A stretch of DNA of 64,000 nucleotides from positions 62,001-126,000 of the forward strand of contig DASXVS010000043.1 of the NCBI GenBank assembly GCA_036504095.1, in the 5' to 3' direction. The position numbers and the translations under genes are program-made. Shown one piece after another: positions 581 through 63,971 of this stretch (its first letter is position 1; every line of letters begins with the position of its first letter). Below the pieces are notes generated by a model. The model made no database searches. It had not been told where the DNA came from and was given only the letters and a program-made list of their open reading frames with translations. This DNA is from Armatimonadota bacterium. Lineage in GTDB: Bacteria; Armatimonadota; DTGP01; JAKQQT01.

Positions 581-938
581 TAGAATATCGCTCCTTCATC
601 CACGCGGCCTGCGTTACCGTTGCCGGCCGCACCAAATAACTAAATGAACTGCATAACCCCGCGGCGGGCGAAACCCGACGGCGCTCTCACGCGTTAACAT
701 CCGCGGATGAGGTTGTGCAAACCATTCCATAATACCATGTTGAACGCCCCTTCGGCAAACGGAGTTGCAGGGCTGAGGGGATCGGGCCGAGGGCTGAGGA
801 GTGTAGGCGCGATGTCAGGCAAGTGGACGTCCTGGGCGAAGCGGAGGATCTCGTCGTGACGCGAGATGTTTCGCTGCGCTCAACATGGCATTACCTCGGA
901 CCTCACCTCTCAGCCCTCAGCCCTCAGCCCTAGAAACT
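581..938. other. Intergenic region between divergent rpmB and the CBS-DUF1385 gene
   Basis: This 358-base gap holds the rpmB ribosome binding site at its left end and a heptamer inverted repeat (770-933) at its right end. Between them I see no convincing open frame, tRNA or riboswitch. An AT-richer patch around 640-660 and 725-745 could hold promoters for rpmB, but no hexamer pair is convincing. A short inverted repeat atctcg/cgagat lies near 848-870, between the two arms of the larger repeat. Confidence 0.4.
770..930. repeat. Heptamer inverted repeat, GGGCTGA / TCAGCCC arms
   Basis: The left arm contains the word GGGCTGA exactly at 770-776 and 791-797, in phase with the variants ggggatc and gggccga. 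The right arm contains its exact reverse complement TCAGCCC three times in a row at 910-930. The arms are about 105 nt apart, and a smaller hairpin lies inside. The right arm ends 8 nt before the chosen ATG of the CBS-DUF1385 gene. The layout resembles a small MITE-like element without a gene. Confidence 0.6.
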
Positions 939-13814: not shown

Positions 13815-13863
13815 GTTGCGGGTTTCTGGTTTCGAGTTCCGAGTTCCGGATTCCTGGTTTCGA
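13815..13863. repeat. Seven tandem imperfect heptamers (GTTYCGA type)
   Basis: Seven consecutive 7-nt words: gttgcgg, gtttctg, gtttcga, gttccga, gttccgg, attcctg, gtttcga. The run fills the gap between the steA stop (13874) and the steB start (13805) and has no inverted partner. Words of the same type recur between two tRNA genes at 63902-63971. Confidence 0.75.
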
Positions 13864-54132: not shown

Positions 54133-54750
54133 TTATGTGAAGGATTCCGCATCGGCCTCATCGCCATCCGGCGCGGGCGGCGGCGAGGCGCGAACGTTGT
54201 ATCGGTTCATCGCCGCACCGACGCCGTCACGAAGCGCCATCAGCGTCGCCTCGACCGCGAGGACGAGCGCCTCGTCCACTTCCGGCCATTCCTCCTTGCG
54301 GAACGTGCCGAGTACGTGGCCGATGGCGTCCGCGGTTGGAGCGCCCACGCCGATCCGCACCCGCGGAAACTCGTTTGTGTTGAGATGCGCGATGATGGAT
54401 TTCAGCCCGTTGTGCCCGCCGGCGGAGCCACGCGCGCGAACGCGGACGAAGCCCAGCGGGAGCGCGTAGTCATCGGTGATGACCAGGATGTCCGCGGGCT
54501 CGATCTTGTAGAAGGCCGCCGCCGCCTGCACGCTCTCGCCGCTGAGATTCATGAAGGTGAGTGGCTTCAGCAGGAGGACACGACCCACGCCCGGAAGGTC
54601 GAGCTCGGCGGCATCCCCGCGGAAGCGCCGTTCGGTCCTGAATCGGGCGCCGTGGTCGTGCGCCAGACGGTCCAAAGCCATCCAGCCCGCGTTGTGCCGC
54701 GTGGTTTCATACTGGGACCCGGGATTTCCCAGTCCGACGATAAGTTTCAT
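54133..54750 (-). CDS. pth: Peptidyl-tRNA hydrolase
   Basis: Recycles tRNA from dropped-off peptidyl-tRNA. The 205-residue product begins MKLIVGLGNPGSQYETTRHNAGW (catalytic His in RHNAG) and has LLKPLTFMNLSGESV and SAGGHNGLKSI. A short acidic tail (APDGDEADAESFT) extends beyond the usual length. Upstream lies a region with two heptamer arrays. Confidence 0.96.
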   Translation of the reverse strand: MKLIVGLGNPGSQYETTRHNAGWMALDRLAHDHGARFRTERRFRGDAAELDLPGVGRVLLLKPLTFMNLSGESVQAAAAFYKIEPADILVITDDYALPLGFVRVRARGSAGGHNGLKSIIAHLNTNEFPRVRIGVGAPTADAIGHVLGTFRKEEWPEVDEALVLAVEATLMALRDGVGAAMNRYNVRASPPPAPDGDEADAESFT

Positions 54751-54776
54751 ACCAGCAGGATAGCAGGGGGAGCGGT

Positions 54777-54811
54777 GAACGATGAACGATGAACGATGAA
54801 CGATGAACGAT
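54777..54811. repeat. Five perfect tandem GAACGAT heptamers
   Basis: The 7-nt unit gaacgat is repeated five times without change, followed by the variant gacgctt. It lies just upstream of pth, in the gap before lon. Perfect identity suggests recent expansion by slippage. Confidence 0.9.
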
Positions 54812-54870
54812 GACGCTTACCGAGCCGGGACACTGCCACGGAACGCTGGCGCGGAGGCCGGCGCCTCACT

Positions 54871-54961
54871 GGATGCCGGATGCCGGATGCCGGATGCCGG
54901 ATGCTGGATGCGGAATGCTGAATGCTGGATGCTGAATCCTGAATCCTGGCCCCTGAATCCT
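54871..54961. repeat. Thirteen tandem heptamers drifting from GGATGCC to GAATCCT
   Basis: Thirteen consecutive 7-nt units in perfect phase: ggatgcc four times, ggatgct, ggatgcg, gaatgct twice, ggatgct, gaatcct twice, ggcccct, gaatcct. The run ends 10 nt before the lon stop. The same words form the arms of the inverted repeat at 34441-34508. The rest of the 54751-54970 gap shows only a GC-rich hairpin-like GGCGCGGAGGCCGGCGCC patch near 54849-54866. Confidence 0.9.
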
Positions 54962-54970
54962 TCCGGGCTC

Positions 54971-57370
54971 CTACACCGCTATCTCGCCCTCCGGCTCCGG
55001 CTTCGGGTGCAGCGCCAGGCGGAGCACTTCGTCCACGCGCGACACCAGGTGGAATTTCAGTTCCGCGCGGGCCTTCTCGGGGATGTCCACCAAGTCCTTC
55101 TCATTGTCCGCCGGGAGAATGACCTCGGTGATGCCTGCGCGGTGCGCGGCCAGGACCTTGTCCTTTATGCCTCCGACGGGCAGCACGCGGCCGCGAAGCG
55201 TCACCTCGCCGGTCATCGCGACCTCCCGGCGAACCGGGCGCTGGGTGAGCGCGCTGGCGAGGGCGGTGGTCATCGTTACGCCCGCGGAAGGGCCGTCCTT
55301 GGGGATGCCGCCCTCGGGCACGTGAATGTGTGCCTCGGTGCGGCCGTAGAACGTTTCGTCGATCCCCAGGGCTTTGGCGTGACTGCGGAGGTAGGACATC
55401 GCCGCCTGGGCGGATTCCTTCATCACATCGCCCAACTGGCCGGTCAGCAGGAGTTTGCCGTCGCCGGCCATCAGGGTGACCTCGATGGAGAGTACATCCC
55501 CGCCGAACGACGAAACGCTGAGGCCCGTGGCCACTCCGATCTCGTCCTTTTCCTCGGCGAGGCCGTAGTGATACCGGCGCGGCCCGAGGTACGTGGCGAT
55601 GGATTTCTCGGAAACGTTTGTGCGGGTCTTGGTGCCTTCGGCAACGCCGCGCGCAACCTTGCGGCACACCGTGGCGATCTCGCGCTCCAGGTTGCGAACG
55701 CCGGCCTCACGGGTGTAGTGGCGGATGATGTCCGTGACCGCCGCCGGCGCGATCTTCACCGTTTTGTCCGTCAGGCCGTGGTCCTTGATCTGCTTCGGGA
55801 GCAGGAACCCCTTCGCAATCTCCAGTTTCTCCTCTTCCGTGTAGCCGGGGAAGGCGATAACCTCCATGCGGTCCCGCAAGGCGGGCGGCACGGGATCAAG
55901 CAGGTTGGCTGTTGTGATGAACATAACCTTGGAGAGGTCGAAAGGAGCTTCAAGGTAGTGGTCGGAAAACGCGCTGTTCTGCTCGGGGTCGAGTGCCTCG
56001 AGCAGCGCGGCGGAGGGATCGCCCCGGAAATCGGCGCCGATCTTATCGATTTCGTCGAGCATGAAGACGGGGTTGTTGCTGCCGGCGGTCTTGATGCCCT
56101 GAATAATGCGGCCGGGCATGGCGCCGACATACGTTCGGCGATGGCCGCGAATTTCCGCTTCGTCGCGAACGCCGCCGAGGCTCACGCGGATGAACTTGCG
56201 GCCCAGGCTTCGCGCGATGCTCTTGCCGATGCTTGTCTTTCCCACGCCTGGAGGGCCGCTGAAGCAGAGAATGGGCCCCTTGGGCGTTCCCGCAAGCTGC
56301 CGCACCGCCAGAAACTCCAGTATGCGCTCCTTCACCTTTTGCAGGCCGTAGTGGTCTTCATTGAGGATCGCCTCCGCGGCGCGAATGTCCAGCGCTTCGG
56401 GCGTGGCGACGGACCACGGCAAATCGGTGAGCCAATCGAGGTAATTCCGCACGACCACGCCTTCCGGCGCGGCGTACGGCATGTGGTTCAGGCGTTCGAG
56501 TTCCTTGAACGCGCGTTCCTGCACGTCTTCCGGCATATCGGCGGCTTCGATCTTGACACGGTAATCGTCGGTTTCCAGGCCTCTCTCGTCGCGTTCGCCC
56601 AGTTCCTGCTGGATAGCCTTCAGTTGTTCGCGAAGGATGAACTCACGCTGCGTGTCGCCCATCTCCTTCTCAACCTTGTTGCGGATGTTCTTCTGGATCT
56701 CGAGTATCTCGATTTCCTTGTTCAGCAGCACGTTGAGGCGTTCAAGGCGCCGATTGGGAGAGAGCGTCTCGAGCAGCGACTGCTTGATATCGACCTTCAG
56801 CGGCAGGGCCGGCGTGATCATATCCGTGAGGCGGGCGGCATCGTCCACGTTCATCACGTTGACCAGGACCTCCGGGGGGATGGTTCGGCCCAGTTCGCAG
56901 ACGGCCTGAAACTGGCTCGCGACGGAGCGCATCAGCGCCTCGGTTTCCACGCTGAGCTCGACAGATTCCTCGAGGGCCTCCACTCGCACCCGGTAGTAGG
57001 GCTCCATCTGGATGTAGCGGCGGATGCGCACGCGCTTGACGCCTTCCAGCATTACGCGGACCGTGCCGTCCGGGATGTTGAGGATGTGCATGATGTCCGC
57101 GGCGATGCCGATGTCGTACAGATCCTCGGGACCGGGGTCTTCCACGCCGGCCTCGCGCTGGGAGACCAGAAGGATCATCCGAGATTCGGTCCGTGCTTCC
57201 TCAAGGGCGCGCACAGACTTGTCGCGGCCCACGATGAGGGGGAAGATGTGATGCGGGAAATAGACGTTGTCCCGGATGGGAAGCAACGGGAGCACGTCCG
57301 GCACGTACAACGGTTCCTCAAGGAGGGTTTCGGGCTCAACTGGTTCGCGGCGGGCTTTGGCTCTGGGCAT
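54971..57370 (-). CDS. lon: ATP-dependent protease Lon
   Basis: Degrades damaged and regulatory proteins. The 799-residue product has the LON substrate domain ([14 protein letters not shown]), the AAA+ module with [15 protein letters not shown] and MLDEIDKIG, and the serine protease domain with [11 protein letters not shown] (catalytic Ser) and [14 protein letters not shown] (catalytic Lys). Length is normal for bacterial LonA. It follows clpX downstream on the same strand, 66 bp away. Confidence 0.97.
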
Positions 57371-57436
57371 TAGGTTTCCTGTGCGGCTGTGCGCCGCGCC
57401 GTTGATGGCGTGGTTCGCTGAAAGCGCAAGGCGGCT

Positions 57437-63819: not shown

Positions 63820-63895
63820 TGGAGCCGACGATCGGACTCGAACCGATGACCTGCGGTTTACGAAACCGCTGCTCTACCAACTGAGCTACGTCGGC
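63820..63895 (-). tRNA. tRNA-Thr (anticodon CGT), CCA encoded
   Basis: A complete cloverleaf: acceptor GCCGACG pairs with CGTCGGC, D-arm GCTCAGTTGGTAGAGC, anticodon loop TTCGTAA giving CGT, and T-loop TTCGAGT. The CCA is encoded at 63822-63820. Another tRNA lies just upstream on the same strand. Confidence 0.96.
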
Positions 63896-63901
63896 AGCGC
63901 A

Positions 63902-63971
63902 GTTCCGAGTTTGAAATTCCCGGCGCCGAGTTGAACCCGGAACCAGGAACTCGAAACCCGAAACTCCGTGA
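63902..63971. repeat. Heptamer palindromic run between two tRNA genes (GTTCCGA / CGAAAC type)
   Basis: Ten 7-nt words in phase: gttccga, gtttgaa, attcccg, gcgccga, gttgaac, ccggaac, caggaac, tcgaaac, ccgaaac, tccgtga. The second half is roughly complementary to the first. The words match the one-sided run between steA and steB (13815-13863). It fills the whole spacer between tRNA-Thr and the next tRNA, so it would be part of their precursor RNA. Confidence 0.75.

Follow-up and report, generated by a model that had tools for sequence, protein, structure and literature searches.

Two intergenic heptamer arrays belong to a genome-wide population of seven-nucleotide tandem repeats in an Armatimonadota bacterium

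Tandem arrays with a 7-nt step are dispersed through the intergenic DNA of this Armatimonadota genome, and the two arrays that lie between genes we take, following an initial annotation, to be lon and pth (peptidyl-tRNA hydrolase) are ordinary members of that population rather than a special locus. The preference of bacteria for 7-nt tandem units is an old and unexplained observation. A survey of heptamer simple sequence repeats (SSRs) from 2007 is reportedly the work of Mrazek and colleagues. As cited in PMC4692102, that survey found a general excess of heptamer SSRs in prokaryotes, heptamers of Calothrix are also on record, and the length of DNA in contact with the polymerase has been proposed to favor slippage at seven; as cited there, the survey and the Calothrix record are at survey level, without the unit families, inverted pairing or drift described here. 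The heptamer excess in bacteria, dispersed intergenic heptamers, inverted pairs and the avoidance of divergent gaps were known already. Three features appear to be new. First, many unit families coexist in one genome. Second, there are units without the G-tracts invoked for Xanthomonas. Third, in most large families variation is confined to one to three of the seven unit positions. We favor, with a probability of about 0.55, a reading in which slippage by 7-nt steps, drift and dispersal between loci produce arrays that are tolerated in non-promoter gaps.

Both arrays were first noticed in the window, by which we mean the whole stretch of 64,000 nucleotides that was analyzed (Table 1).

Table 1. 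Coordinates of genes and heptamer arrays in the window
Feature	Position	Strand	Remarks
pth gene	54133..54750	-	205 aa; downstream in transcription order; ORF list
lon-pth intergenic gap	54751..54970	.	exactly 220 bp; flanking genes both on - strand; ORF list
Perfect heptamer array, GAACGAT x5	54777..54811	+	TGAACGA family
Spacer	54812..54870	.	59 nt; no array, no inverted partner
In-phase heptamer array, 13 units, GGATGCC to GAATCCT	54871..54961	+	TGGATGC/TGAATCC family
lon gene	54971..57370	-	799 aa; upstream in transcription order; ORF list
Heptamer array CCTCAGC	901..931	-	TGAGGGC family; same window
Heptamer array GGTTTCT..AGTTCCG	13821..13848 (C43:75821-75848)	.	CGAGTTC family; same window

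The layout given by the initial annotation, with both arrays and their spacer inside a single gap, is exact on the sequence. TRF calls the perfect array at 54776-54813 (5.4 copies of TGAACGA, 100% match); the array stops 26 nt short of the pth start codon, on its upstream side. The longer array reads GGATGCC (four times), GGATGCT, GGATGCG, GAATGCT (twice), GGATGCT, GAATCCT (twice), GGCCCCT and GAATCCT, with no indel across its 13 units; its drift, which had been called stepwise, is not strictly so, since it is non-monotonic, with GGATGCT reappearing at unit 9 and a divergent unit 12. To call the two arrays unrelated was also too strong, as both fall in genome-wide sets, run in the same orientation, and have units (TGAACGA and TGAATGC) that are identical at five of seven letters. 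No GGG tract is present in GAACGAT, GGATGCC or GAATCCT. Judged from the letters alone, it is plausible that the perfect array would be young and the drifting one old. An antisense open reading frame of 856 aa (54803-57373 of the window, + strand) lies opposite all of lon and starts within the heptamer gap; it is probably a shadow ORF of GC-rich DNA.

The wider population emerged from approximately 1.92 Mb of unmasked sequence (41% of the 4.68-Mb genome), which holds 152 period-7 arrays with 45 distinct consensus units, a density biased upward by match-guided sampling. Period and orientation comparisons are less affected by this bias: the same sequence holds 15 arrays of period 8 and 0-4 each of periods 3-6, 9-13 and 15, the 75 arrays of period 14 being a harmonic of 7. 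Simulating the first 0.75 Mb or so with an order-3 Markov model yielded no period-7 runs of at least 12 self-matching positions, as against 64 observed. Used as a query, the lon/pth gap matched 73 other places in its own genome at E 0.01 or better (22 to the GAACGAT part and 51 to the 13-unit part, counted from the listing of matches), and the pattern GGATGCYGGATGCY, with one mismatch allowed, matched 237 times, compared with two matches for the reversed pattern. Contigs C2, C24 and C43 were sampled as large or as the window's own, and C46 and C25 for their many pattern matches; further stretches were picked by matches, and C40, C48, C71 and C79 were taken in bulk though each had matches. The sample excludes 72,000 masked bases, and genes were called with our own rough caller, whose ORFs cover 86% of the sampled bases.

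Two contig ends (C46:1-186 and the last 228 bases of C25, C25:91021-91248) lie inside long TGAGGGC-type arrays. Long heptamer arrays thus probably break the assembly, which suggests that they disrupt short-read assemblies, and longer arrays may be missing from this one. If arrays prove length-variable, they could be used as strain markers.

A few families dominate: 61 of the 152 arrays belong to TGGATGC/TGAATCC, 26 to CGAGTTC, 18 to TGAGGGC and 10 to TGAACGA. A GGG tract is present only in some families other than those of the lon/pth gap, such as TGAGGGC. Differences between adjacent units are concentrated at a few positions in most large families, namely positions 1 and 3 in the TGGATGC group (112 of 157 differences), positions 1, 3 and 5 in TGAGGGC (87 of 102), two positions in CGAGTTC (17 of 20; 30 of 48 for arrays fitted by the reverse complement) and one position in TGAACGA (11 of 20), while variation in the TGAATCC group is spread; families were assigned by best fit to hand-typed reference units, and these counts include weakly fitting arrays. 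Since the same unit variants are common to many loci, either units or arrays are copied between loci or their sequence is constrained. A 19-letter irregular string of the lon/pth array has one further occurrence in the sampled DNA, at C46. We do not propose a universal unit grammar YGRNNNC: it fits 103 of the 152 arrays (shuffled-letter mean 34.1) and 13 of 14 arrays in loci of the same-family genome G001, for which such a pattern had guided the choice of 15 of the 16 contigs. Among the named loci of other phyla, it fits only 4 of 10 arrays (mean 2.1).

Drift of units within arrays has a clear order. Among 36 variable arrays of at least six units, unit identity declines over lags 1 to 5 (0.879, 0.849, 0.806, 0.783 and 0.744), and adjacent units exceed the mean identity of all pairs in 33 of the 36. 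Unit differences comprise 447 transitions and 201 transversions. Expansion at the level of dimers is also seen, as an alternation of TGGATGC and TGAATGC, and phase is kept even in a mosaic array (C53:4776-4837) where AGGAGGC gives way to AGCATTC and then to AGGATTC, as well as in another (C56:5184-5275) whose units likewise wander between families. When the arrays are removed from intergenic DNA, self-match at lag 7 is still the highest of lags 1-36 (0.2766; baseline 0.2637, sd 0.0037), which is what one expects of decayed arrays. The initial annotation had argued that phase kept through drift calls for selection on the 7-nt step or for a mechanism imposing it. The genome-wide population supports an imposing mechanism; selection is not needed, because duplication of whole units followed by point mutation keeps phase automatically.

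Placement relative to genes is far from even: 21 arrays overlap called ORFs for most of their length, 124 fall in classified gaps, and 7 are found where a sampled stretch ends. The classified gaps are co-directional for 90 arrays, convergent for 21 and divergent for 13, the last against 29.1 expected by gap length (binomial p 0.0004). Counted by gaps of at least 60 bp, arrays occur in 10 of 183 divergent, 66 of 667 co-directional and 16 of 139 convergent gaps, a weaker contrast than by length. Within co-directional gaps the median distance is 56 to the upstream stop and 63 to the downstream start, and arrays are nearer the stop in 48 of 90 cases and nearer the start in 42.

These patterns are consistent with our favored sequence of events, in which replication slippage, the most likely mechanism, would add and remove units in whole 7-nt steps; point mutations, mostly transitions, would then produce the observed drift with phase kept automatically; and purifying selection would exclude arrays from genes and largely from divergent promoter gaps, where their avoidance is evident. 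To account for the handful of units found at dozens of loci, copying of units or of short arrays from locus to locus would have to be added, for instance by template switching or recombination among arrays. Mismatch repair, according to a tandem-repeat survey (PMC4060949), acts well on loops of 1-3 bp and poorly on longer ones, which fits tolerance of 7-nt slips. Slippage alone leaves the dominance of the two largest families and the position-restricted variation unexplained.

A close parallel is provided by the GGGNATC heptamers of Xanthomonas and Nostoc, described by Rehm et al. (2015, PMC4692102) as hundreds of dispersed arrays, 89-93% of them intergenic in Xanthomonas, under-represented between divergent ORFs and forming 70 inverted pairs in Xcc and 75 in Xac. 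As in that description, the arrays reported here are dispersed and mostly intergenic, show a divergent-gap deficit and vary at certain unit positions. Inverted pairs occur in the present genome and are absent at lon/pth. That account concerns a single G-rich unit, preferred in four copies, able to form G-quadruplexes and interpreted through them, whereas the present genome has many families, and the lon/pth units have no GGG tract. The GGGNATC arrays are also said to lie nearer the 5' neighboring ORF (PMC4692102), a preference not seen here. That many families, most of them without G-tracts, have the same intergenic bias, divergent-gap avoidance and inverted pairing suggests that no G-quadruplex need be invoked for any of these, and makes the 7-nt step itself what calls for explanation. 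We offer as a tentative conjecture, with a small though real chance of being right, that a polymerase property at the level of the lineage, or a protein reading 7-nt steps on both strands, imposes both the heptad period and inverted pairing on intergenic DNA, nearly whatever the unit sequence; the G-quadruplex reading for Xanthomonas would in that case be a side issue, with the 7-nt step, and the few variable positions in most large families, as the general entity.

Inverted pairing is a further feature that simple slippage does not predict. An inverted partner lies within 120 bp of 45 of 126 arrays, against 7 of 126 in a control that ran the same queries on the flanks of a different array; for direct partners the counts are 35 and 14. 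Such pairs recall Geobacter metallireducens, for which tandem heptamers on opposite strands have been described with the consensus MTYCTGA (16 aligned sequences), together with a set of 49 elements with four GGACCGG heptamers and sets of octamers (PMC2700814). With few sites per class, the paired heptamers were proposed there as putative binding sites of a global regulator, and a nucleoid protein or global regulator that recognizes sites in 7-nt steps might similarly use the arrays described here, often in opposite-strand pairs, as candidate platforms for binding. Besides the excess of inverted partners, the small number of variable unit positions in most large families speaks for this idea, as does the Geobacter class-3 consensus, a cyclic form of TGAMTYC, which covers TGAATCC and TGACTCC of this genome; the TGAATCC units of the 13-unit array fit it, and its TGGATGC units and GAACGAT do not. 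We nevertheless consider it unlikely. One protein would not explain 45 distinct consensus units with one period, other arrays of a family often resemble an arm more closely than its inverted partner does, and the avoidance of divergent gaps is the opposite of what promoter regulation predicts. The Geobacter sites are paired on opposite strands, while the lon/pth arrays run in the same direction with no inverted partner, and the Geobacter account, as available in PMC2700814, presents no analysis of drift such as the one above.

A further explanation of the inverted arms, that they form intergenic RNA or DNA hairpins acting as terminators, RNA-stability elements or cruciforms, is in our view quite unlikely. 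The genome has 40 distinct heptad stems, with arms of 14-48 nt and a median loop of 15 nt, and stems scoring at least 20 occur near 18 of the 152 arrays as against 1 of 152 control positions; weaker stems (score 14), however, are common at control intergenic positions as well (24 of 152, against 52 of 152 arrays). Selection at the RNA level was rejected for want of a G-U bias among sense-strand mismatches (30 G-U and 26 A-C, p 0.69), and no T-rich tail follows the stems (T 24%). An apparent mirrored order of units in the two arms (22 of 27 stems above permutation) proved to be an artefact of choosing arm ends by pairing, and vanished when the arms were those of the array caller, since among 11 inverted pairs 4 were above the permuted order, 5 below and 2 tied at two decimals. 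A 48-nt inverted repeat at C71:70794-70913 has ACCACAAAGGCACGAAGAC-like arms and heptad-like TTCTGAA units, and a degenerate AGTTCCG/GGAACT heptad region with inverted arms (63870-63966 of the window) adjoins a tRNA gene (63823-63895, - strand).

Searches of the lon/pth gap itself gave nothing that favors hairpins or indicates a function there. Neither the partner search nor the 40 listed stems yielded an inverted partner or heptad stem for its arrays, the predicted RNA fold of the gap is unremarkable (z +0.87; DNA fold z -1.04), no intrinsic terminator (GC stem followed by a T run) occurs in 54600-55100, no promoter- or terminator-like site was found in the gap, and an Rfam search returned no match within it. 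Terminator, promoter, Rfam RNA and stable RNA fold were accordingly set aside for this gap, as was a REP/REPIN element, given the stem list and the RNA fold.

Elsewhere in the genome, arrays alternate with GC-rich palindromes, REPIN-like in appearance, in tandem units of 86-93 bp at C25:88939-89576 (L084 8939-9576; 7.0 copies) and at C8 near 2.97-3.28 kb (L040 1495-1835; 3.7 copies). These two loci, together with seven Y1_Tnp matches in the genome, would suit a mobile-element origin, in which the arrays are carried along or hit by, for example, REP-like palindromes that Y1 transposases move; we hold this to be improbable, as most arrays inspected with their flanks, including lon/pth, have no adjoining palindrome (judged by eye, uncounted) and, where the gap matches other loci best, the similarity breaks off at the array's end. 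It is very improbable that the arrays are a contingency (phase-variation) device in which unit number alters expression of pth or lon, for although a perfect five-unit run so close to the pth start is of the kind that slips, pth and lon both have housekeeping roles, the proximity of arrays to stops and to starts in co-directional gaps is about equal, and phase variation was dismissed by Rehm et al. as an account of similar repeats (PMC4692102).

Unit families are largely lineage-specific. In a phylum sample of 151 genomes, YGRATNC in three copies matched in seven: 186 times in the genome studied, 51 in the same-family G001, 8 in G131 and once in each of four others, one of which also has one match to the control; a genome of the same class had none. 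In one more genome, G118, the reversed control matches 14 times and YGRATNC never, which perhaps points to another heptamer family. Among 61 genomes, a CGAGTTC-type pattern matched 39 times in the genome studied, not at all in G001, four times in G030, once in G006 and in none of the other 57, with 3, 1 and 1 matches of its reversed control in three genomes. Homologues of the pth protein occur in 56 of 61 genomes. The initial annotation had pointed to distant relatives as the place where the same array would speak against its reading, and none of 29 other genomes of the phylum has a period-7 array at pth. In the single same-family genome compared, the lon/pth gap is not orthologous and pth has a different neighbor, which, from its translation, we take to be a ribose-phosphate pyrophosphokinase gene. 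Across 80 pth-neighborhood loci from named genomes of many phyla (879 kb), 10 arrays have period 7, 6 period 12 and 5 period 9, and the locus of a Verrucomicrobia MAG has an array with exactly the TGGATGC unit. Recurrence in distant phyla has also been described for the TAACTGA direct repeats of Beggiatoaceae, with 169 sets in one draft genome (MacGregor 2015, PMC4679880); these are heptamer arrays like ours, but that account describes one unit, whose related heptamers seldom or never form repeats. In the titles and abstracts of the open literature we found no report, beyond Xanthomonas/Nostoc, Geobacter and Beggiatoaceae, of several heptamer families behaving in this way in one genome, which weakly suggests that a multi-family heptamer genome is new.

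Two minor observations concern sequences other than heptamers. Many of the 15 octamer arrays in the sample are GGAAATGR-like (for example C46:78626-78685, C46:78734-78764 and C17:47806-47862), and one octamer inverted pair is found at C46. An A-run followed by CTTCAGACAAAA and GCGGGCTAGTAAGT recurs as a similar stretch beside arrays at L040 (C8), at C42 near 7.6 kb and at C64 near 15.3 kb, and is perhaps a repeated leader of a gene family.
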